41,720 bases of DNA from a virus. Every line of letters starts with the position of its first letter. Position 1 is the first letter of the stretch. The DNA lies in IMG/VR virus record IMGVR_UViG_3300036835_000566, positions 1-41,720 of that record, one strand, 5' to 3'. The translations under genes were made by a program, and so were the position numbers. Under the pieces are notes generated by a model. It saw nothing but the letters and a program-made list of their open reading frames with translations. It had not been told where the DNA came from and made no database searches. Below, in pieces: positions 1 to 41,720 of the stretch.

Positions 1-157
1 GCCCGACTTCGCCCGACGCCTCGCTCACGAAGAACGGGACGCCGCGCCACGACGCCGGCCGGAGCCGCGCGCGCCACGAGCGCTCCTCGACGGTCCGCCG
101 CTTCTGCGGGCGGCGCTGCCGCGGCGCCTCGTCGAAGAATCCGACCTGCTTCGCCAT
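1..157 (-). CDS. Phage DNA circulation protein N-terminal domain (gpN-like), partial
   Basis: This is the 5' end of a gene that runs off the left edge. The ATG is at 157-155 and the first residues read MAKQVGFFDEAPRQ. It is a near-identical copy of the start of the complete gene at 40659-41201, differing by a few substitutions, and corresponds to it if the map is circular. It starts one base after the tape measure stop codon. The family (Mu gpN / DNA_circ_N) is part of the baseplate hub of contractile tails. Confidence 0.75.
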   Translation of the reverse strand, partial: MAKQVGFFDEAPRQRRPQKRRTVEERSWRARLRPASWRGVPFFVSEASGEVG

Positions 158-676
158 CCTACGGCGCTCCGCCCGGGGCGTACGGGCCGCTGTACTCGGG
201 GACGCTCCACGGCATCGAGCGGCCGACGTCGACCGACTTGATCTTCGCCGCGCCGGTCGCCGTCGCCGCCGTCGTCTGCCCGGGCGGCGCGTTCTTGTTC
301 TCGATCGTCACGGCGACCGTGCCCGACGCCGGCGGCCCGGTGAGCGGCGGGGGCGGGACGCCCGGGACGCTCCCCGCGACGAACGTCTCGGGCGCCAGGG
401 TCTTGAACTTCTCCCATTCGCTCTTCATCACGTCGGCGGCTCTCGTCCACGCATCGAAGAGCGGGATGTCGGTGTAACTCTTGATCGTCGTCCACATATC
501 GACGAACGACGTCTTGACGGCCGTCCAGGCGTGCGAGATGCCCTCGATATCGGCCTTCGTGCTCTTGACGAAGCCGGCGATCTGTTCGAGCCCGCCCGCG
601 AAGTCCGTCGCGATCGCTTCGCGGTTCTGCTCCGTATAGGTCGCCATCTGCTCGTTCAGCTTCGTCATCTCCGGGA
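1..676. repeat. Left copy of 676-bp terminal direct repeat
   Basis: Bases 1-676 align without gaps to 41045-41720 (constant offset 41044). About 25 substitutions were counted by eye. The block covers the start of the gpN-like gene and the 3' third of the tape measure gene. Gene order across the join is continuous (tape measure, then gpN, then hub), so the natural reading is the overlap of a circular or circularly permuted genome. The substitutions are clustered around 290-480. Confidence 0.9.
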
Positions 677-13212: not shown

Positions 13213-13487
13213 CCGGCGAACTCCCGGCGGCGACGGACGCGACCCTTCGCCGGCGGCGGCGGGGGTTCGGCCGTCGCGAGCTCGGCGTGAAGACCGCAGC
13301 GCGCGATCAAGTAGCCGCCCCACGGGCCGCTCTTCCCGTCGAAGTGCCGGACCCAGGCGCCATTACAGCCGCAGCGGAAGACGGGAAAGAACCGGCCGTT
13401 GACGATCCGGGGCCGGATCGGGAGCGCCGTCCGCGGCGTCCGGAAGAACCCGTCTCCGACGACGCCGAAGTCGAAGAGCGCGCTCAT
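13209..13487 (-). CDS. Hypothetical protein between two methyltransferase genes
   Basis: This 92-residue protein has ATGA overlaps at both ends, so it is translationally coupled to both neighbours. Residues 28-68 contain RIVNGRFFPVFRCGCNGAWVRHFDG and ARCGLHAEL, with three Cys and two His that could bind a metal. The C-terminus is Pro then Arg/Lys rich. I do not recognise a family. Coupling to a C5 methyltransferase and a SAM-dependent methyltransferase suggests an accessory role in DNA modification or in evading restriction, as inference only. Confidence 0.6.
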   Translation of the reverse strand: MSALFDFGVVGDGFFRTPRTALPIRPRIVNGRFFPVFRCGCNGAWVRHFDGKSGPWGGYLIARCGLHAELATAEPPPPPAKGRVRRRREFAG

Positions 13488-14563
13488 ACGTCGAAGATCT
13501 CCCGGGCGACGGCGCCGGCGAGCGCCCGCATCATGAACGGCGGGACCGCCCGGCCGAGCCGCTCGGCCTGCTCGCCCTCCGTCCCGACGAGGACGTAGTC
13601 GTCCGGGAAGCTACAGAGCCGCTTGATCTCCGGGACGTTGAACGCCCGCCGCTCCCAGTGGACGACGCCGGCGGCGGTCATCCCCTTCGGCGTGTAGTGC
13701 CCGACCGTCGCCGTGATCGTCGGACAGGGCTCCCGCGGGTCGACGACGATCAGGGAGAAGTACCGCTTCGACTGCTGCCCGGGGACGAGCCAGTCCGACG
13801 CCGCCGTGAGCGCCGGCCCCATGTGGATGGTCCGCGCGCCTGGCGGGAGCCCGGCGAGCGCTTCGCCGGCGCCGTAGCGGTACGGCAGCGGCGTCGGGAA
13901 CGCCGGGACGCGGCGGAGATCGTCGCGGACGGCGACGAAGAAGAGCCGCTTCCGCCGCTGCGGGACGCCGAGCCACTGCGCGTCGAGAATCCGCGCCGCG
14001 ACCCGGTAGCCGAGCGCCTGGAATCGCCCGAGAATCTGCTTGAAGACGCCCTTCCCGGCACCGGCGACGAGCCCGGCGACGTTCTCGGCGATCGCGACCC
14101 GCGGCCGGAGCTCGTCGACGAGCCGGAGATACTCGTCGAAGAGATCGTCGACCCGCTGGACGACGCCCGAGTACGGCCGCGGGACGCCCCAGCCGGCGGT
14201 CCGGCGCCCGGCGAGCGAGAAGGCGGCGCAGGGCGGGGAGCCGTCGAGGACGTCGAGCTCGCCGCGCCCGAGCCCGAGCGCCCGGAGTACGTCGGCGCCG
14301 CGGAGCTCCCGGACGTCGCGCTCGTCGACCGGCGTCTCGGGATAGTTGGCGGCGTAAGTCGCCGCCGCGACCGGAATGAACTCGCTCGCGAAGAGGACCC
14401 GGAACCCGGCGAGCCGGTAGCCGGTCGACGAGCCGCCGGCGCCGGCGAAGAGCGAGACGACGGTCCGGCCATGGGACGGCGTCGCCCGGACGTCGGCGAC
14501 CGACGGGACGCGGTACGGCGGGCGGTCTACGCCGGCCGCTGCGGTTTCGGCTGTCCGCTCCAT
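13484..14563 (-). CDS. DNA (cytosine-5) methyltransferase
   Basis: This 359-residue protein has the ordered motifs of C5 DNA methyltransferases: motif I SLFAGAGGSSTGY (about 37-49), motif IV GSPPCAAFS with catalytic Cys about 112, motif VI AENV (159-162), motif VIII QRRKRLFF (about 203-210) and a C-terminal motif X region ERLGRAVPPFMM. It transfers methyl from SAM to cytosine C5 in a specific DNA site that cannot be predicted here. No restriction endonuclease gene is recognisable beside it, so a protective (anti-restriction) or regulatory role is likely. It overlaps its upstream gene by 37 bases. Confidence 0.93.
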   Translation of the reverse strand: MERTAETAAAGVDRPPYRVPSVADVRATPSHGRTVVSLFAGAGGSSTGYRLAGFRVLFASEFIPVAAATYAANYPETPVDERDVRELRGADVLRALGLGRGELDVLDGSPPCAAFSLAGRRTAGWGVPRPYSGVVQRVDDLFDEYLRLVDELRPRVAIAENVAGLVAGAGKGVFKQILGRFQALGYRVAARILDAQWLGVPQRRKRLFFVAVRDDLRRVPAFPTPLPYRYGAGEALAGLPPGARTIHMGPALTAASDWLVPGQQSKRYFSLIVVDPREPCPTITATVGHYTPKGMTAAGVVHWERRAFNVPEIKRLCSFPDDYVLVGTEGEQAERLGRAVPPFMMRALAGAVAREIFDV

Positions 14564-16336: not shown

Positions 16337-17020
16337 TCAACCCTGCGAGATCTCCTGCGAGCGCTTAACCGCCGCCGCTAGGACGTCGCCGAGCCGGACC
16401 GGGTCGCCGCCCGGGCGGGGCGTCGGGACGGCGCGCGCGGGACCGCGGCGCATGTGGTGCGCGCTCCGGCCGAGCTCCGGGTCCGGGTCCCGCGCGCGCG
16501 TGCGGCCCTCGACTCCAGTCGCGCGCGCGCGCGCGTCCGGATCCGGATCTTTTTCTTCTACAGGGGAAGGGGAAGGGGATGCGACGTTGGTGACGCCGTC
16601 ACTGACGGCGTCACATCCTGTAAGCCTGCGATGTTTCTGCATTCTACTTCGCGTCGCGGCCCGGCGCTCGAAGACGTCCGCCCGGGACGGGTTGTATTTC
16701 AGGTAGTCGTGAATCTCCCAGTCGTCGCCCCGGTCGTGCCAGAGCCCGATCGCCGCGAGATGGTCGGCGATCGCCTCGGGATCGGGCCGGACGAGCTCGG
16801 CGAGCGCTCCGCGCCGCGGGACGCCGGCGTCGTTCCCGGGCGCGACCGTTACGCCGCTCAGGTTCAGCAGGAGCGCGACCTTCGCCTTCGGGAGCCGGCC
16901 GTCGGTCAGGTTCCGCGCGCACCAAGAGATCGCCGCCGTATGTAGGACGAGCCCGAGCACGCCGGCGCGTCCGATCTTCCCGTTGTCGAGGATCGCGTCG
17001 TCAATCGCGGCCCACGCCAT
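16337..17020 (-). CDS. Winged-helix phage replication (replisome organiser-like) protein
   Basis: This 227-residue protein opens MAWAAIDDAILDNGKIGRAG, typical of phage proteins with a DnaD/replisome-organiser-like winged helix: small beginning domain, HTAAISWCARNLTDGRLPK, then GLWHDRGDDWEIHDYLKYNPSR (about 92-112). The C-terminal half is charged and Pro rich and probably disordered. Such proteins load the host helicase at the phage origin. It overlaps the upstream gene by 20 bases. No origin was identified inside it, although the 21-bp repeats about 1.1 kb downstream are a candidate. The assignment rests on the N-terminal pattern. Confidence 0.6.
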   Translation of the reverse strand: MAWAAIDDAILDNGKIGRAGVLGLVLHTAAISWCARNLTDGRLPKAKVALLLNLSGVTVAPGNDAGVPRRGALAELVRPDPEAIADHLAAIGLWHDRGDDWEIHDYLKYNPSRADVFERRAATRSRMQKHRRLTGCDAVSDGVTNVASPSPSPVEEKDPDPDARARATGVEGRTRARDPDPELGRSAHHMRRGPARAVPTPRPGGDPVRLGDVLAAAVKRSQEISQG

Positions 17021-17885
17021 CGCCGGACTCTCCCTTCGGGACTTTACGAACCGGTCGGCGACGCAGGACGACGCCGGGACCGGAGGGACGCGTTCGGGTC
17101 TCTCGATCGCAGTAGGCGAGAATCGCCTGGCCTGCCGGCGACGCCGCGGCTACAAGCTCAGGGCCGCCGGGATAGAGCGCGGTCGGCGCTAGATACTCCG
17201 TCGTCCCGCAGAGATAGAGCCACGGACCGTTCAGAAGAAGCAGCCAGTACGGCCGAAGCACGAGATGGTCGCGTGCGTGGCGGACCGGCGCCATCGCGAT
17301 CGGCCCGCGGCATCCGTTCTCAACGTAGCGACGAACGCGAGCCGCATCCGCCCACCCGAACGCGAAGAGCAGCATAAAGCGGCGCGCCGACGCGAAGGTC
17401 GCCGCTGCTGCCGCGAGATCGAGCGCGCCCTCGTTCGGGCTAGAACCGCAGGCGTCGCTGATCGCGAGCCCCCAGACCCGATCGGGTAGCCCGAACGACC
17501 GGACGCGAGTAACGAGCCGCCCAAGCGTCCGCTTGTTATCCTCGGCGATGATCGCGATCCGCTGGTGTGCGAGCAGCCCGCCCGGCGCGCGGAGATGTTC
17601 CCGGAGCCGAGCGGCCCGGGCGTAGTGCTTCTCGACGATCGTCAGATCGTACGGAAACGTCTTCGCGACGCCGTGGACGAGAAAGTCGCGCAGTAGCGTC
17701 GCGGTACTCCGTCCCTCTGCGTATGACGCCTCGCCGCCGTTGAAGTCGTAGGCGACGAAGGGCGGCCCGGTCGGGGTGAGCTCCCGCGCCGCCCGGGCGA
17801 TCCACGCCCGGCAACACTTCGAGAAGAACGCGTGCTTCTCGCGCGAGTACCGACTATGTCCGCCCCCCGGCGCGCGACGGCCCAT
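17001..17885 (-). CDS. TcmP-like (three-Cys-motif partner) methyltransferase-fold protein
   Basis: This 294-residue protein follows the DUF5131 gene by four bases. Elements resemble the TcmP family: KHAFFSKCCRAWI (residues 18-29) for the usual KH..L..Y...W, YDFNGGEASY (46-55) at the cofactor loop, YDLTIVEKHY (79-88) at the second acidic strand, and AISDACGSSPNEG (141-153) at the DPxG position. The canonical GPG and DPYG residues are changed, so activity is uncertain. TcmP proteins occur next to Gp37/Gp68-type (DUF5131) proteins in phages and mobile elements. Function unknown; a nucleic-acid modification role is inferred. Confidence 0.5.
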   Translation of the reverse strand: MGRRAPGGGHSRYSREKHAFFSKCCRAWIARAARELTPTGPPFVAYDFNGGEASYAEGRSTATLLRDFLVHGVAKTFPYDLTIVEKHYARAARLREHLRAPGGLLAHQRIAIIAEDNKRTLGRLVTRVRSFGLPDRVWGLAISDACGSSPNEGALDLAAAAATFASARRFMLLFAFGWADAARVRRYVENGCRGPIAMAPVRHARDHLVLRPYWLLLLNGPWLYLCGTTEYLAPTALYPGGPELVAAASPAGQAILAYCDRETRTRPSGPGVVLRRRPVRKVPKGESGDGVGRD

Positions 17886-17889
17886 CGGC

Positions 17890-19245
17890 CTAGAGACCCT
17901 TCAGATAGCGGAAGCTCTCCGCGACCCGGGGCTCGGTGGGGCGCCGGCCCCAGGGAAATTCTCGGAGCCGCATCGTCTCGGGGAGTCGAAGATTCGTCTT
18001 GCAGTAGACGGCGAGTCCGGCCGCGCTCGCGTCGGTAACGAGCTGCGCGAAGGGCCGGAGCGGCGGCACGTACGCCGGAGTCTGCGCGCTCGGACTCGCG
18101 CCGCCGATTACGACCCACTGAAAGAGATCGAGCTGCTCGAACTGGAGCGCCTGGAGAAGCGGCTCGACCGAGAGCCACTTCGTCCCGCACCGGATCTTCG
18201 CAAACGCCTTCTCCGCGTTCGCGACCCGGGCCTGCGCGTCGACCGTCGTTCCCATCCACCAGTTCTTCGGGAACTCGAACTCGGCCGCGCGCTGCGGGAA
18301 CTTCGTAAGAACGAGAAACGTCCACTGCGAGTTGCGCCGCGCCATCTCGATCGTTGCGTCGATCCACTCGGCGGGGACCCACTGGCCGAAGAGATCCGAC
18401 ATTGAGTTAGCGAAGATGTGCCGATAGGCGCGATCGCCGGCCGCTTCGGGTGGGAGCGGCTCGTGCGCCGGCGCGCCGAGTCGGCTCGGGTAGAACGTCG
18501 GCGCGAAGCCCTGCGGGTAGATCCGCTCGGCGATATCGCGCGCGTAGCAGTAGGGGCAGTTGTGGAGACACCCCGTAACTGTATTAAGCGAGCGCCGCGC
18601 CCACTCGATCGCGTCCGTCGGTTGCTCGTTTAGTTTCTCGGCGCAGTCGAAGCCGGCCGCGATAATCTGGCGTCGCGTCGCCGGATCGAGCGCTGTCCAT
18701 TCCGCGACCGAATAGGCGCGCTCGGCCGGACGGGTCTCGCCGCGCGTCGGGCGGAGACGCAGCGGCTGACCCTTCTTTCTCGATGGACGATAGCGCCGAA
18801 CGGCGGCGCGAGCGAGCACGAGTAGCGGGCGGCGGGCGAGCGCCTCGATGCTATCGGCGGTCTCTAGCGCATCGAGAACGTCGTCGCGAGCGGCGGCGAG
18901 TAGGCGGAACCAGCGCCGCTCGTCGCGGGAGATACTTTCGACCGCGGTCGAAAGTTTCTTACCGCGGCCTCCACCTTCGCCCTGACGGCGCGGCCCGAGC
19001 AGCTCGCCCCAGCGCAGCTCGAGGTACCGCTGCGCTTTTACTAGTTCGAGCGTATCGCGCTCTAGACCCTCCCACTTCTTCTGGAGCTCTTCGAGCTTCT
19101 TCTGGCCGAGCCGGAAGTCGGAAGTAGTCCGGTCGCCGTTCGTCGGAAACCAGTAATCGACGAGCGGGCGCCAACCTCCCGGTGGTAAATCCGGGAGACC
19201 GACACCGCGCCGGAGCGCCGGTAGCGTCGCGGACGCGGTCGTCAT
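17890..19245 (-). CDS. DUF5131 (Gp37/Gp68 family) radical-SAM-like protein with extra N-terminal domain
   Basis: This 451-residue protein starts at ATG 19245 with GAAGGAG upstream and an ATGA overlap. Residues 1-170 form a helical domain (LELVKAQRYLELRWGELL, then ISRDERRWFRLLAAARD) resembling the domain attached to phage and plasmid modification proteins. The second part is DUF5131: NTVTGCLHNCPYCYARDIAE supplies a CxxxCxxC cluster-binding motif as in radical SAM enzymes, followed by FANSMSDLFGQWVP, FLVLTKFP, WWMGTTVD, KWLSVEPLL and WVVIGGASP. Substrate and product are unknown. It partners the TcmP-like gene. A fusion of this N-terminal domain to DUF5131 is notable. Confidence 0.8.
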   Translation of the reverse strand: MTTASATLPALRRGVGLPDLPPGGWRPLVDYWFPTNGDRTTSDFRLGQKKLEELQKKWEGLERDTLELVKAQRYLELRWGELLGPRRQGEGGGRGKKLSTAVESISRDERRWFRLLAAARDDVLDALETADSIEALARRPLLVLARAAVRRYRPSRKKGQPLRLRPTRGETRPAERAYSVAEWTALDPATRRQIIAAGFDCAEKLNEQPTDAIEWARRSLNTVTGCLHNCPYCYARDIAERIYPQGFAPTFYPSRLGAPAHEPLPPEAAGDRAYRHIFANSMSDLFGQWVPAEWIDATIEMARRNSQWTFLVLTKFPQRAAEFEFPKNWWMGTTVDAQARVANAEKAFAKIRCGTKWLSVEPLLQALQFEQLDLFQWVVIGGASPSAQTPAYVPPLRPFAQLVTDASAAGLAVYCKTNLRLPETMRLREFPWGRRPTEPRVAESFRYLKGL

Positions 19246-19454
19246 CGCTTCTTCTCCTTCTGGGCCGCACACGTTAGGTCGTGACTGATCCAGACCGACG
19301 GGCCGCGCTCGACGCGCGGCGGACGTCCCGGGTCGCTCATCCCGGCCGCCTCGACGCGATAGCTGTAGACCTGTTCGAGCGGGATGTCGGCGCCCGCCGG
19401 CGAGACCGCCCAGGTGATCGGCCGCCCGCAGCCCTGACAGGTCGCGCCGCTCAT
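19242..19454 (-). CDS. Small zinc-binding hypothetical protein
   Basis: This 70-residue protein starts at ATG 19454 (MSGATCQGCGRPITWAVSPA), with ATGA overlaps to the lipoprotein gene upstream and the DUF5131 gene downstream. CxxC near the start and a lone His/Cys near the end (SHDLTCAAQ) form a likely zinc site. An extra in-frame ATG exists at 19490, but the coupled start fits better. No specific family is recognised. Confidence 0.6.
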   Translation of the reverse strand: MSGATCQGCGRPITWAVSPAGADIPLEQVYSYRVEAAGMSDPGRPPRVERGPSVWISHDLTCAAQKEKKR

Positions 19455-19627
19455 GACGCTTTCTTCGCCGTCTCGCAAAAGGCGAGACACTCGCGAGAAC
19501 AGTACTCCGTAGCCTGACTCGCGCTAAACCATGGCGCCGGACCACACTGGCAGGTGCAGTGACTACAGCCAGGTAGGACGAGCAGTACGGCGAGCCCGAT
19601 AAGAACAGACCAGACGGGAGCGCTCAT
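19451..19627 (-). CDS. Small Cys-rich lipoprotein
   Basis: This 58-residue protein starts at ATG 19627 and overlaps both neighbours by four bases. A signal peptide (VWSVLIGLAVLLV) leads to a lipobox-like LPGC with the modified Cys at position 21. Six more Cys follow in the pattern CxxCxCxC and CxxxCxxxC (positions 24, 26, 28, 43, 47 and 51). It is expected to be anchored to a membrane with a disulfide- or metal-rich head. It does not resemble Rz1 spanins (not Pro rich, and distant from the lysis genes). A role in changing the host envelope is possible. Unrecognised family. Confidence 0.6.
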   Translation of the reverse strand: MSAPVWSVLIGLAVLLVLPGCSHCTCQCGPAPWFSASQATEYCSRECLAFCETAKKAS

Positions 19628-19860
19628 ACTCGCGGCGGAATCCGGTGCGGGTCGACGCCGGCGACGCCGAGATCGCCGAGCACCCGGGCGGACGCGACGA
19701 GCGTCTCGTGGAGACTGGCGGCGGCGTCGGCGTACAGCTCCGCCCGCGTGAGCTGGCTCCGGCGGGCGGCCCGGCGCGTCTCCCGGTTGAGCCGCCGGGC
19801 GAGCCCGCAGGCGGCGTCGAACAGCTCGCGGAGCGCCCGCTCGTCGGCCGGGGGGATCAC
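19624..19860 (-). CDS. Hypothetical helical protein
   Basis: This 78-residue protein begins at GTG 19860, coupled to QueC by a GTGA overlap and to the lipoprotein gene by ATGA. It is almost all helix (ERALRELFDAACGLARRLNR, then RAELYADAAASLHETLVAS). No family is recognised. Its position in the QueC/DpdA block suggests it belongs to the same transcript, not necessarily the same pathway. Confidence 0.55.
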   Translation of the reverse strand: MIPPADERALRELFDAACGLARRLNRETRRAARRSQLTRAELYADAAASLHETLVASARVLGDLGVAGVDPHRIPPRV

Positions 19861-20492
19861 CGGAGCGCCTCCGCCCGCAGGACGCAGGCGTCGCAGCGGC
19901 CGCAGGCGCCGAGCCGGGTCGGCGCGTAGCACGACCACGTCGCGGCGAAGTCGACCGCGAGCGACCGCCCGAGCGCGACGACCTGCTGCTTCGAGAGCGC
20001 GACCAGTGGCGCGGTCACGCCGGTCGGCTGATCGGGGAGCGCCGTCCCGGCGACGGCGTCCATCGCGGCGACGAAGAGCACCCGGCAGTCCGGGTAGCCG
20101 CGCGCGTCGGTCGCGGTCGCCCCGAAGACGACGGTCGCGCCGCCGAGAATCCCGGCGAGCGCGATCCCGTGGGCGAGAAAGACGGCGTTGCGGCCCGGGA
20201 CGAACGAGCGCGGGATCCCGCCGTCGCGGATCGCCGTCGGGCTCCGGTCGAGCGGCAGGCCATCGGCGCCGCAGAGCGGGACCTGCTTCCAGAGCGCCGG
20301 GTCGACGACGACGCAGTGGAGCTCGACGCCGCCGGTCCGGCAGATCGAGCGGGCCGCGTCGAGCTCGTAGGGCAGCGCCCGCTGCCCGTAGCTCACGTGG
20401 AGCCCGACGACGCGGTCGTACGTCCAGCAGGCGAGCGCGAGCGCGACCGTCGAATCGATCCCGCCGGAGACGAGGACGACCGCCCTAGACAT
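19857..20492 (-). CDS. queC: 7-cyano-7-deazaguanine synthase (QueC)
   Basis: This 211-residue protein carries the PP-loop LVSGGIDST (residues 7-15), FVPGRN (97-102), ATDARGYPDCR (127-137), and the zinc site TWSCY...GACGRCDAC with Cys 188, 197, 200 and 203. QueC converts 7-carboxy-7-deazaguanine to preQ0 using ATP and ammonia. FolE, QueD and QueE homologues are not seen here and would have to come from the host. It overlaps the DpdA-like gene by eight bases, so the two are coupled. In phages this combination indicates DNA containing 7-deazaguanine bases that resist restriction. Confidence 0.92.
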   Translation of the reverse strand: MSRAVVLVSGGIDSTVALALACWTYDRVVGLHVSYGQRALPYELDAARSICRTGGVELHCVVVDPALWKQVPLCGADGLPLDRSPTAIRDGGIPRSFVPGRNAVFLAHGIALAGILGGATVVFGATATDARGYPDCRVLFVAAMDAVAGTALPDQPTGVTAPLVALSKQQVVALGRSLAVDFAATWSCYAPTRLGACGRCDACVLRAEALR

Positions 20493-21096
20493 AGAGCGGG
20501 AATCCCGTCTGGCGCCGCGCCTGGTCGAGCTTCGGGAGCGTTACGGCGTACCGGGTGACGCTCGTCCCGTCGAAGGAGTGGATACCCGACGCCGCGCACC
20601 GGGCGATCCGCCGGACGCTGTTGACGCGACCGACATGGATATAGCACCCGACCCGGGCCGCGAGTGCGCCCCAGTCGCCGAGCGACCGGAGCTTCCACGG
20701 CGTCGTCCCGCCGACGAACAGGCCGACGTTCGCGCCGAGCATCGGCGAGACGTCCGCTTCGACGACGCCGTCCTGGACTGGCAGCAAGAGAAGACGGGTC
20801 TGCCCGAGCAGAAACGGGAGCCACGTCAGCGACCGTTTGAGCGACCGTCGGCCGTCGCCGACGATATCGGGCAGCACGACGAAGTCCGCGCCGGCGCCGA
20901 GCGTCTGGACTGCCCGCAGGAAGGCGTCGGCGTCCCACGGTTCTTGGCGGCAGAACGCGCTCCAGGCGCCGTTGTCGAGCGCGTATCGCATCCCCTCCGT
21001 TTGGAGCCGCGCGGGCGTCACCATGAGCCGCCAGCCCGCGTCGCGGAGCGCCGCCAGGTTCCGTCGCGTCCCGGTCCGGCTCGCATACGGAGTCAC
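20485..21096 (-). CDS. dpdA: DpdA-like DNA 7-deazaguanine transglycosylase
   Basis: This 203-residue protein starts at GTG 21096, overlapping the RuvC-like gene as GTGA. It has the recurring phage DpdA motifs: YASRTGTRRNL (4-14), YALDNGAWSAF (38-48), DFVVLPDIVGDG (71-82), LLLLPVQDG (102-110), LFVGGTTPWKL (126-136), IHVGRVNSVRR (153-163) and HSFDGTSVTRY (173-183). These belong to the tRNA-guanine transglycosylase superfamily. Phage members exchange guanine in DNA for a 7-deazaguanine. With QueC alone encoded here, deoxy-preQ0 is the predicted base; other 7-deazaguanines would need further enzymes. The Asp nucleophile was not assigned with certainty. Confidence 0.8.
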   Translation of the reverse strand: MTPYASRTGTRRNLAALRDAGWRLMVTPARLQTEGMRYALDNGAWSAFCRQEPWDADAFLRAVQTLGAGADFVVLPDIVGDGRRSLKRSLTWLPFLLGQTRLLLLPVQDGVVEADVSPMLGANVGLFVGGTTPWKLRSLGDWGALAARVGCYIHVGRVNSVRRIARCAASGIHSFDGTSVTRYAVTLPKLDQARRQTGFPLYV

Positions 21097-21656
21097 GCCG
21101 CCGGCTCCGCGCCGAACCGGGCCGCCGCCGTCCGGGCGAGATACGCCGCGAGCAGGAGCGCCTCCGCCGGGCCCTCGTCGACGGCGCGGAGCGGGCCGAC
21201 GCTCGGGCAGACTTCCGACGCTCGGAGCCGGCTCGCGGCCTTCGACGCGCCGAGCAGCCCGTACGCGCGCTTCCAGACCTGCGGCGGGATGATCCGGTAG
21301 GGGACGCCCGTCGCGACCGCGAGCGCGAGCCAGAGCCCCGAGCCGAGCCCCGTCCGGTACGTCGACGCGACGCCCTGGCGCGGGCGCGCGCCGCCCGCTT
21401 CGATCGCGAGCTCGACGACGAGCGGCGGTGCCTCGGCGATCGTGAGCTCCCGGAGCAGCGACCACATCGCTCGGACGTCGTACTCGAGGCGCGAGCGCTT
21501 CCCGCGGCGGACCCGGACGACCGGGGTCCGGAAGAGCGTCGTCCCGACCGGCTCGCGGTTCGTCCCGAGATCGAGCACGGCGAGCCCGCCGGCGAGTCCC
21601 GGGTCGATCCCGACCCAGCGCGTGACCGGGACGACGGCGGCGGCGTAGTTTCTCAT
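21093..21656 (-). CDS. RuvC-like Holliday junction resolvase
   Basis: This 187-residue protein starts at ATG 21656. It has the RuvC signature: WVGIDPGLAGGLAVLD with Asp 18, VVELAIEAGGARPRQGV with Glu 82/86, then GVPYRIIPPQVWKR, and a final acidic pair VDEGPAEALLLAAY (Asp 160, Glu 165), all in order. The family cuts branched DNA, which phages need before packaging replicated genomes. It is coupled by four-base overlaps to the DpdA-like gene downstream and to the small zinc protein gene upstream. Confidence 0.8.
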   Translation of the reverse strand: MRNYAAAVVPVTRWVGIDPGLAGGLAVLDLGTNREPVGTTLFRTPVVRVRRGKRSRLEYDVRAMWSLLRELTIAEAPPLVVELAIEAGGARPRQGVASTYRTGLGSGLWLALAVATGVPYRIIPPQVWKRAYGLLGASKAASRLRASEVCPSVGPLRAVDEGPAEALLLAAYLARTAAARFGAEPAA

Positions 21657-22532: not shown

Positions 22533-22632
22533 CCCCGGACAACCGGGCGTAACGAGCAGGGACGAGCCGCGCCGGGATCGTCGGGATTGCGCGGACTTCG
22601 CCCCGATCGGTCCGTAGCCGATGCGCTACCTC

Positions 22633-22679
22633 GCTACCTTTTAAGTAGCGGGTCCCGGGTTCGAATCCCGGACGGCTCA
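22633..22679 (+). other. tRNA-Lys(UUU) 3' half, probable attP core
   Basis: The plus strand holds an anticodon stem of five pairs (GCTAC/GTAGC at 22633-22637 and 22645-22649), a seven-base loop CTTTTAA with anticodon UUU, a five-base variable loop, a perfect T arm (CCGGG TTCGAAT CCCGG, 22655-22671) and the acceptor 3' strand with discriminator A at 22679. A matching 5' half (acceptor strand and D arm) is not convincing. It lies just 99 bases from the integrase stop codon, as expected for integration into the 3' end of a host tRNA gene. Confidence 0.75.
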
Positions 22680-22778: not shown

Positions 22779-23987
22779 CTACTTCTTGGTTAGCGCTGTC
22801 TCCGCCGCCGGCGCCGGCCGGTCGAAGAGCCCGACGAGCCCGGCCGGGAGCCGGGGCTTCGCGGTCGCGGCGTAGGTGTCGATCGTCAGCTGGATCGACG
22901 AGTGCCCGAGCTGCTGCTGGACGTACGCCGGCGTACAGCCGGCTTCGATCAGGAGCGTCGCGTACGTATGCCGGAGATCGTGCGGCGAGACCGGCCGCGG
23001 GAGCCCGGCGGCGACGCCGAGCTCGCCGATCTTCCGGTTGACGTTCCGCGGGAGCAGCGTCCCGCCGGTCGCCGTCGGGAACAGCCAGCGGTTGCCGATC
23101 CGCGCCGTCTCGACGGCGTGTCGTTTCAAGCCGGCGACGCGCGCCTTGAGCACCGCGACGAGCTCGGGCGAGAGCGTCAGATCGACGATCCGGGGGCCGT
23201 GCTTCGGCGGCCCGAGCGTCCCGGTCCGGTAGTCGAGCGCGTGGCGGACCCGGAGCGAGCCGCCGCCCGCGGCGGAGAAGTCGTCGACTTCGAGCGCGAG
23301 CGCCTCGCCGAGCCGGAGCCCGGCGCGCATGTAGACGAGGAGAAGCCCGAGCCACCGCGGCGCGCGCGTCTTCGTCGAGGCGGCGAGCGTCGCGAGCTCG
23401 TCGGCGTCGAGGACCCGCTGCTCGATCCGCGCCCGGCGCTCGGCCTTCGTCGGCTCGCAGCGGAGTCCGCCGCGCTTCCCGCCGAGCTTCCCCGCCGGGT
23501 TCGCCGGGAGCATCTCGCGCTCGACGGCGGCTTGCAGACAGGCGCGGACCGCCGAGTAGATCGTCCGGATCGAGCCCGGCTTGAGCGGCCGGGGCTGGTT
23601 CGTCTTCGGGTCCGTCCCGCCGCGTGCCTGGCAGTCGAGCAGCGCGTCGAGCACGACGCCGCGCCGGCAGTCGACGAGCCGGACGTCGCCGAGCCGCGGG
23701 AAGAGGTAGCGGTACATCGCGCGGTGGTGGACGTCGTACGCGCGCGGCTTGAGCGTCGGCTCGATCTTCGCGAGCCACGCCGTCGCCCACTCGCGGAACG
23801 TCAGCCGGGGATCGCAGCCGGCGGCGCCGCGCCGCTGCCCGCGGGTCGGGACGAGCGTCTTCGCGGCGTCGTCCGCGTCGGCGCGCGTCACGTAGCGCGG
23901 CTGATGTTGAACGTTCTGCGCGTCGCGGTAGTTGAGCACGTACCGGACGCCGGCGGCGGTCTTGATCTTCCGGATCGCGTACGCCAT
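22779..23987 (-). CDS. int: Tyrosine integrase
   Basis: This 402-residue protein starts at ATG 23987, which overlaps the upstream stop as TGATG. An N-terminal arm-binding and core-binding region (1-185) precedes the catalytic domain. The catalytic residues are Arg 225 (RAGLRLGE), Lys 262 (PPKHGPR), His 336 and Arg 339 (SPHDLRHTYATLL), His 362 (LGHSS) and Tyr 372 (TIDTYA). It recombines attP with a host attB, here probably the 3' end of a tRNA-Lys gene. All residues are intact, so it should be active. It is the last gene of the leftward control transcript. Confidence 0.95.
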   Translation of the reverse strand: MAYAIRKIKTAAGVRYVLNYRDAQNVQHQPRYVTRADADDAAKTLVPTRGQRRGAAGCDPRLTFREWATAWLAKIEPTLKPRAYDVHHRAMYRYLFPRLGDVRLVDCRRGVVLDALLDCQARGGTDPKTNQPRPLKPGSIRTIYSAVRACLQAAVEREMLPANPAGKLGGKRGGLRCEPTKAERRARIEQRVLDADELATLAASTKTRAPRWLGLLLVYMRAGLRLGEALALEVDDFSAAGGGSLRVRHALDYRTGTLGPPKHGPRIVDLTLSPELVAVLKARVAGLKRHAVETARIGNRWLFPTATGGTLLPRNVNRKIGELGVAAGLPRPVSPHDLRHTYATLLIEAGCTPAYVQQQLGHSSIQLTIDTYAATAKPRLPAGLVGLFDRPAPAAETALTKK

Positions 23988-40662: not shown

Positions 40663-41201
40663 AGGACGAGCCCCGCGAACGCCGAGAGCGCCGCCGCCTG
40701 GAGCGCGCCGGCCGCCGCTTGTAGCGCGGCGCCGGCCGCGCGCCGCGCGCTCGGGAGCCCGCTCTGTCCGGGCTCCGCGAACGAGAGATCGAAGCGGCAC
40801 ATCCGCCCCTCGTCGTCCCGCTCGGTGTAGCGGAAGCGGTCGCAGACGACGCGGAGCTCGCCGAGATACGGGTGGACGAGCTTCCCGGGACCGGGCTGCT
40901 CGCAGGCGGCGAGCAGGCGGTCCCGCGTTCCCATGTAGCCCTCGCCGAGCACGTAGCCGGTGATCGACCACTTCCGCTGCGCGCGGCCGAGATCTTCGGC
41001 CCAGGGCTGATCCCGCTGCGGGTACTCGTGGAACTCGTAGCGGCGCCCGACTTCGCCCGACGCCTCGCTCACGAAGAACGGGACGCCGCGCCACGACGCC
41101 GGCCGGAGCCGCGCGCGCCACGACCGCTGCTCGACGGTCCGCCGCTTCTGCGGGCGACGCTGCCGTGGCGCCTCGTCGAAGAATCCGACCTGCTTCGCCA
41201 T
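40659..41201 (-). CDS. gpN-like (DNA circulation) N-terminal protein
   Basis: This 180-residue protein (ATG 41201) has the DNA_circ_N features: RPASWRGVPFFVSEASGEVG, RRYEFHEYPQRDQPWAEDLG, RAQRKWSITGYVLGEGY and RDRLLAACEQPGPGKLVHPYLG. It ends in an Ala-rich helix just before the ATGA overlap. The N-terminal codons repeat at the left edge of the window with substitutions. It starts one base after the tape measure stop. Confidence 0.8.
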   Translation of the reverse strand: MAKQVGFFDEAPRQRRPQKRRTVEQRSWRARLRPASWRGVPFFVSEASGEVGRRYEFHEYPQRDQPWAEDLGRAQRKWSITGYVLGEGYMGTRDRLLAACEQPGPGKLVHPYLGELRVVCDRFRYTERDDEGRMCRFDLSFAEPGQSGLPSARRAAGAALQAAAGALQAAALSAFAGLVL

Positions 41202-41720
41202 CCTACGGCGCTCCGCCCGGGGCGTACGGGCCGCTGTAGTCGGGGACGCTCCACGGCATCGAGCGGCCGACGTCGACCGACTTGATCTTCGCCGCGCCGG
41301 TCGCCGTCGCCGCCGTCGTCTGCCCAGGCGGCGCGTTCTTGTTCTCGATCGTAACGTTGACGGTTCCCGACGCCGGCGGCCCGGTGAGCGGTGGCGGCGG
41401 GACGCCCGGGACGCTCCCCGCGACGTACGTCTCGGGCGGGACCGCCTTGAACTTCTCCCATTCGCTCTTCATCGCGTCGGCGGCTCTCGTCCACGTGTCG
41501 AAGAGCGGGATGTCGGTGTAGCTCTTGATCGTCGTCCACATATCGACGAACGACGTCTTGACGGCCGTCCAGGCGTGCGCGATGCCCTCGATGTCGGCCT
41601 TCGTGCTCTTGACGAAGCCGGCGATCTGTTCGAGCCCGCCCGCGAAGTCCGTCGCGATCGCTTCGCGGTTCTGCTCCGTATAGGTCGCCATCTGCTCGTT
41701 CAGCTTCGTCATCTCCGGGA
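41045..41720. repeat. Right copy of 676-bp terminal direct repeat
   Basis: The matching copy of 1-676. Most differences fall in 41330-41520. The absence of indels together with both silent and amino-acid-changing substitutions suggests two natural variants and not random sequencing error. Confidence 0.9.
41203..41720 (-). CDS. Tape measure protein C-terminal part, truncated by the window edge
   Basis: The last 170 codons of a tape measure gene, entering from the right edge. It is the second version of 159-676 and differs at several residues (for example APPG retained, while VPPETYV replaces LAPETFV, and a VPDYSG ending replaces VPEYSG). It lies upstream of gpN as expected. In a circular map it would be the same gene as 159-1685, so one of the two versions is a variant. 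Confidence 0.8.
   Translation of the reverse strand, partial: PEMTKLNEQMATYTEQNREAIATDFAGGLEQIAGFVKSTKADIEGIAHAWTAVKTSFVDMWTTIKSYTDIPLFDTWTRAADAMKSEWEKFKAVPPETYVAGSVPGVPPPPLTGPPASGTVNVTIENKNAPPGQTTAATATGAAKIKSVDVGRSMPWSVPDYSGPYAPGGAP

Follow-up and report, generated by a model that had tools for sequence, protein, structure and literature searches.

Phages that modify their DNA with 7-deazaguanines require DpdA, and their DNA may bear dPreQ0, dADG, dPreQ1 or dG+ (PMC6884629). The DpdA of phage 9g has a conserved histidine, His196, which is missing from DpdA2 (PMC6884629). Singleton DpdA groups are already present in the literature; phages with singleton QueC or FolE were left aside by Hutinet et al., as the role of these genes was unclear (PMC6884629). 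The canonical signature of QueC includes the motif YxQxHxxE, and Y35, R99, Y131 and Y189 are essential in the Escherichia coli enzyme (PMC13329287).

The locus considered here lies in a 41,720-bp virus record of IMG/VR, IMGVR_UViG_3300036835_000566, the whole of which was analysed and is referred to below as the window. It carries a QueC-family gene and a gene for a short DpdA-like protein, and the rest of the pathway is absent. The short protein resembles DpdA in fold and motif order, and its relatives are recurrently coupled to single preQ0-pathway genes. The pair is probably a minimal cassette for 7-deazaguanine modification of DNA, predicted to depend on 7-carboxy-7-deazaguanine (CDG) supplied by the host. 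The most likely product is phage DNA bearing a 7-deazaguanine, dPreQ0 or dADG, for which the host would provide the QueC substrate.

The gene pair and the viral record

Both ORFs lie on the minus strand (Table 1) and overlap by 8 nt (ATGTCTAG); the adjacent, overlapping pair described in an earlier note on this sequence was recovered at the same coordinates. The short-DpdA gene starts with the GTG at 21096, and homologues align with its product from residue 1. Since it overlaps the RuvC-like gene as well as queC, translational coupling is likely, and the RuvC-like resolvase belongs to the same operon as the short DpdA.

Table 1. Features of the window, with strand and with predicted role or supporting evidence
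Feature	Position	Strand	Predicted role or evidence
Short DpdA-like transglycosylase, 203 aa, GTG start, phrog_15826	20485..21096	-	Predicted guanine to 7-deazaguanine exchange in DNA
QueC-family (PF06508) ATP-dependent enzyme, 211 aa	19857..20492	-	Predicted conversion of CDG, via ADG, to preQ0
RuvC-like resolvase, directly upstream of short DpdA, 4-nt overlap	21093..21656	-	phrog_1770, E 2e-19
78-aa ORF, downstream, overlapping queC by 4 nt	19624..19860	-	ORF call, no functional assignment
C5 cytosine DNA methyltransferase	13484..14563	-	PF00145, E 4e-46
Divergent motif YGQRALPYE replacing canonical YxQxHxxE in QueC	20364..20390	-	Alignment
D41 codon in DNGAW, the motif that corresponds to DSGAF of phage DpdA	20974..20976	-	Predicted catalytic Asp; alignments
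H154 codon in HVGRVNS, counterpart of 9g DpdA His196	20635..20637	-	Invariant in 84 sequences
D176 codon in SFDGTS, counterpart of DSSSW/FDC nucleophile region	20569..20571	-	Invariant
DUF5131 radical-SAM-like protein	17890..19260		DUF5131 and rSAM_mob_pairA matches
294-aa protein beside the DUF5131 gene	17001..17885		No family match
tRNA-Lys(UUU)-like sequence	22609..22679		Probable attP
Tyrosine integrase	22779..23987		
Terminal repeat, 676 bp	1..676 and 41045..41720		96.3% identity, 25 mismatches

The two ends of the window repeat one another (Table 1). The record has no complete status in IMG/VR; it is probably a complete circular or permuted genome in which two variants have been joined. 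With this repeat and a record that is probably near-complete, the absence of a gene becomes meaningful. Curated profiles found no FolE, QueD or full-length DpdA in the window record, and profiles built for this analysis found no QueE or preQ0-type transporter, in agreement with the absence of FolE, QueD and QueE noted earlier. The DUF5131 gene was considered as a substitute for QueE and rejected, as its product matches DUF5131 and rSAM_mob_pairA and has no match to a QueE profile. In PADLOC the same protein also matches PDC-M41B, a model of a candidate defence system (E 4e-31). The C5 methyltransferase listed in the earlier note is confirmed, and could possibly provide a second, separate modification layer.

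The window carries an integrase, and its terminase is akin to those of Rhodobacter phages; its gene list reads as that of a temperate phage, one tail gene being sheath-like. The tRNA-Lys(UUU)-like sequence adjoins the integrase gene and is a probable attP for a host tRNA-Lys gene. A search of 398 Pseudomonadota genomes and of the other IMG/VR contigs gave no match to this att region. The idea that the phage captured its queC at a host queC/tRNA-Lys site found no support: the strand arrangement differs, and queC overlaps the short-DpdA gene, as it does in locus L002.

Homology, motifs and fold of the short protein

Searched alone, the 203-aa protein matches no Pfam or NCBIfam model, and PHROGs places it in phrog_15826, a family of 'unknown function'. 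Single-sequence HMM scans against Pfam, NCBIfam, PHROGs and PADLOC gave no family of known function, and phmmer and the family profile gave chance-level matches only against PDB sequences. The strong DpdA match anticipated in the earlier note from an HMM search of 20485–21096 was not obtained, the single protein having no DpdA/TGT match.

The family as a whole behaves differently. An alignment-based scan confirmed it in at least 566 IMG/VR stretches, and it is present on nine bacterial contigs. Profile phrog_887, annotated as queuine tRNA-ribosyltransferase, matches 11 of 50 family records (E 2e-7 to 8e-4); the matches mapped in G004 and G011 fall within the short protein, and all matches span the DSGAF region. 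Global profile alignment (hhalign) of the short family with phage DpdA pairs the conserved blocks at E 1e-6, and the reciprocal hmmsearch reaches 3e-7, compared with 0.06 or worse for reversed decoys. Homology to phage DpdA is thus detectable by profiles at family level and absent for the window protein alone.

The conserved blocks of phage DpdA (DSGAFSA, LDxIGDP, CFHxGE, YITIGG, HGFGxTS and SCDSSSW) have counterparts, in the same order, in the short family (DNGAW, PDIVGDG, VQDG, FVGGTTxWK, HVGRVNS and SFDGTS). The HVGRVN..RR and GGTTPWK motifs, already pointed out in the earlier note, fall where an alignment of 84 homologues is most conserved, and G129, G130, K135, H154, R157, N159 and R163 are invariant among these. 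In the same 84 sequences D41 is conserved in more than 90% and D176 in 100%, and both align with DpdA by motif and in the global hhalign comparison. As H154 is invariant at the position equivalent to His196, the absence of this histidine, a trait of DpdA2, is not shared by the short family.

An AlphaFold2 model of the short protein, made with the 84 sequences, is a TIM barrel (mean pLDDT 92.5). The top structure found by VIA-align is a TGT with preQ1 (Z 15.9, 198 residues, 2.7 Å); pyruvate kinase reaches Z 15.4, so close to this value that the fold by itself is not decisive, and the conserved residues discriminate better. Among viral predicted structures, named matches include Sonali DpdA, phage queuine tRNA-ribosyltransferases and the DpdA2 of phage nt-1. 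BFVD entry A0A0F7L9Z1, a 499-aa protein of an uncultured marine virus, contains the whole short-DpdA domain in fused form (TM 0.91, 45% identity). On the strength of the motif order, the profile homology and the His196 counterpart, the short protein is best placed in the TGT superfamily as a compact protein of DpdA type, separate from DpdA2 and with a predicted function.

A TGT fold would also suit a pair that acts on tRNA or another RNA, boosting or diverting a queuosine-type modification, and phage boosting of host tRNA queuosine has been proposed for pathway-only phages (PMC6884629). However, the model lacks the zinc-binding tRNA subdomain, the chain stopping just past the nucleophile strand and one helix; the homology is to phage DpdA; and the gene adjoins DNA-replication genes in phages phiG7 and R29Z. 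An RNA target is unlikely, and TGT-type base exchange on DNA would be the simplest reading.

QueC and the identity of the base

The QueC assignment, previously made from an SGGIDST loop, VPGRN and zinc cysteines, is borne out by PF06508 (E 2.9e-51; 174.4 bits against a gathering score of 22) and by the motifs found, namely the ATP loop SGGIDS, VPGRN, YPDC and the zinc motif C(x)8CxxCxxC. The window enzyme shares with canonical QueC the PF06508 domain, SGGxDS, VPxRN, YPDC and CY...C(x)8CxxCxxC, and retains counterparts of E. coli Y35, R99, Y131 and Y189. It differs in having YxQ(x)5E in place of YxQxHxxE, and in a score just below the equivalog cut-off of TIGR00364 (142.7 against 150.3 bits). 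With the same model, the scanned QueCs linked to short DpdA score 85–143 bits, and QueCs of full-pathway phages 185 and 241. The motif histidine is repeatedly missing from linked QueCs (L070, L088, L091, L031, L032, L035, L053 and L026). Some linked QueCs score about equally on the PADLOC CBASS QueC model and on canonical QueC.

Because the window QueC departs from the signature at this one motif, dADG is a serious alternative to dPreQ0. Modification with a 7-deazaguanine made from host intermediates, as predicted in the earlier note, remains well supported; deoxy-preQ0, named there as the simplest base, can no longer be fixed as the product, the canonical motif being missing. An enzyme that halts at ADG, after activation and amidation of CDG, is plausible. 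The cassette would then modify DNA with ADG and not with preQ0, which is a sub-case of the DNA-modification reading and concerns the base alone. We regard this version as tentative. Cap9, for which the YxQ(x)5E variant has been reported, goes no further than activating CDG and joining it to a (protein) amine (PMC13329287). About half of the linked QueCs lack the histidine, in an alignment read by eye, and those of the linked enzymes that were scanned fall below the TIGR00364 cut-off, with those of full-pathway phages above it. Phages 7-11 and MED16, which have DpdA only, carry dADG (PMC6884629, PMC8306585), which also suggests that a phage can rely on host synthesis. On the other side, the four residues essential in E. 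coli QueC are kept, the histidine is not among the reported mutants, and the nearest linked QueCs (L002 and L019) still have it.

QueC-family ligases can also modify proteins, as Cap9 and QatC do (PMC13329287, PMC13279940), and the window QueC matches the PADLOC QueC model at 1e-22. A protein-deazaguanylation module akin to type IV CBASS or Qat, with a QueC-like ligase and a partner, is nevertheless highly improbable. Type IV CBASS shares the ligase family with the window, but a PF18144 search of the record found no CD-NTase and the short DpdA has no PADLOC match. The window QueC scores 142.7 on TIGR00364 against 78.7 on the PADLOC QueC model, and the partners in related loci are QueD, QueE or FolE, not sensors. 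The cysteine motif of Cap9, CE(x)6CxxCxxC, is not present; the window QueC has CY(x)7CxxCxxC.

For the preferred reading, modification of DNA, the following mechanism can be proposed. The host queuosine pathway (FolE, QueD and QueE) would supply CDG, which the phage QueC would turn into 7-amido-7-deazaguanine and then preQ0. By TGT-type chemistry, the short DpdA would then put that base in the place of guanine once the phage DNA has been replicated: an Asp nucleophile would attack C1', guanine would leave and the deazaguanine would enter. The modified product could mask restriction sites. That DNA is the substrate, which base enters it, that CDG comes from the host and that restriction is countered are all inferred, the target and the protection by analogy with relatives.

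Neighbourhood of the family and comparison with known systems

Genomic context provides the strongest evidence, as it is independent of remote homology. A search of IMG/VR seeded by the window QueC alone found nothing. Loci were gathered by the short protein only, and 81 distinct loci were obtained. A preQ0-pathway or transporter gene lies within 400 bp of the short DpdA in 28 of these: QueC in 14, QueD in six, QueE in three, a transporter (a Vut_1/YhhQ-type protein) in three, FolE in one, and QueC with QueD in one. The other 53 have no adjoining pathway gene. Of the 32 pathway-gene matches in the 81 loci, 29 lie no more than 400 bp away and each of these is on the same strand, against 2.1 expected; some seeds for this count were drawn from those loci, and two checks are free of that. 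Seeds from Sonali, phiG7 and the window alone gave the same neighbourhood picture. In 50 whole viral records, curated Pfam models gave 17 matches above cut-off (QueC 11, QueD 5, FolE 1), none of them further than about 410 bp from the short gene, a distance converted from contig coordinates. The record of L045 is the only one to combine two of these three Pfam families; in L083, QueE and QueC occur together. Phages with short DpdA usually have exactly one pathway gene, which may be QueC, QueD, QueE, FolE or a preQ0-type transporter. By contrast, 44 of 48 QueC-selected loci with full-length DpdA also have QueD, QueE and FolE nearby, in a sample biased towards Sonali-like QueC.

A tree built from 84 sequences shows at least 17 changes of partner label overall (8 among labelled rows), and the window, L002 and L019 form a QueC-keeping clade with support 98. 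All seven bacterial genomes that carry a short-DpdA prophage have their own queC. As QueD or FolE beside a short DpdA makes no base alone, the single gene most likely boosts flux through the host pathway. Family members also occur in phages of Mycobacterium smegmatis, which is reported to have no genes for the synthesis of preQ0 (PMC6884629), so that the proposed mechanism would there need an imported base. It is the neighbourhood above all, together with fold, motifs and family homology, that sustains the core of the earlier note, QueC with a short DpdA-like transglycosylase; the strong HMM match to DpdA that it predicted is one part that fell away.

Full-length DpdA accompanies the short enzyme in three lineages (Sonali, phiG7/SHIN8 and R29Z), which suggests that the short enzyme may have a different task. 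This co-occurrence, and the frequent lack of any pathway gene, would fit a counter-defence eraser, which would replace host-made 7-deazaguanine by guanine again or remove a mark carried by DNA or protein. Such an enzyme needs no biosynthetic gene, yet four preQ0-pathway steps and a transporter recur beside short DpdA, and we consider this role very unlikely.

In phiG7 (L018 5980–6572) the short DpdA sits between the genes for the DNA clamp and the DNA polymerase; the annotation splits it into two overlapping ORFs, so that it is possibly frameshifted. In R29Z (L119 4767–5351) it is close to a DNA polymerase gene, and in CAjan (L111) it is missing from the spot occupied in these two phages. In Erythrobacter phages R6L and ZS04 a short DpdA was found and no full-length one. 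PAPS-reductase-like PP-loop genes of the cysH type, another common viral 'metabolic' gene, occur about 1.5 kb or less from short DpdA in three lineages (L014 6715–7632, L012 7463–8506 and L037 5738–6568).

On balance, we favour the view that a large unnamed family of compact DpdA gives phages 'one-gene' 7-deazaguanine cassettes, and that some of the linked QueCs may make ADG. Such a cassette would consist of the inserting enzyme and whichever preQ0-pathway step or transporter suits the host. If this is true, DNA modification is the role of some of the orphan queC, queD, queE and folE genes that are listed as auxiliary metabolic genes of viruses, and singleton pathway genes beside a short DpdA acquire a testable role, that of topping up one host step for guanine swapping. 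Depositors of several actinobacteriophage genomes already label distant relatives 'DpdA-like'; the size of the compact family and its coupling to one pathway gene appear to be new relative to the literature examined. In a separate set of viral contigs (L205–L281), queC lies at the very end of the contig in 32 of 80 QueC loci, and a close tRNA-Lys(UUU) follows in 23 of the 32. These are probably host queC genes beside a prophage integration hot spot that have been counted as viral, and they may inflate 'viral queC' in auxiliary-gene surveys.

Among described proteins, the short 'DpdA-like tRNA-guanine transglycosylases' of actinobacteriophages (Sonali gp81, GreaseLightnin gp55, Aoka gp40 and ReqiPine5 gp03) belong to phrog_15826, like the window protein, and are about 28–35% identical. 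They form a separate, more distant branch in which QueC is not adjacent, and their function is predicted. DpdA2 of Vibrio phage nt-1 (R9TGF0) is a TIM-barrel relative of the short family (Foldseek E 5e-4), but has 464 aa and is reported to lack His196, which the short family keeps as H154. DpdA3 and DpdA4 are likewise published DpdA subfamilies. Phage DpdA of the 9g/CAjan type (phrog_887) shares with the short family the TGT-superfamily barrel, a preQ0-gene neighbourhood and the motif order, in which both Asp positions and the residue matching His196 are included. It differs in length, at roughly 250–360 aa against about 200 aa for the short family, which goes undetected by single-sequence HMM, and it is accompanied by all four pathway genes, whereas the short family has one and usually no other in the record. 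Two designs would thus be distinguished: in one, full-length DpdA comes with the complete pathway, and in the other, short DpdA has a single gene and draws on the host; for the second, modification is predicted to be host-dependent.
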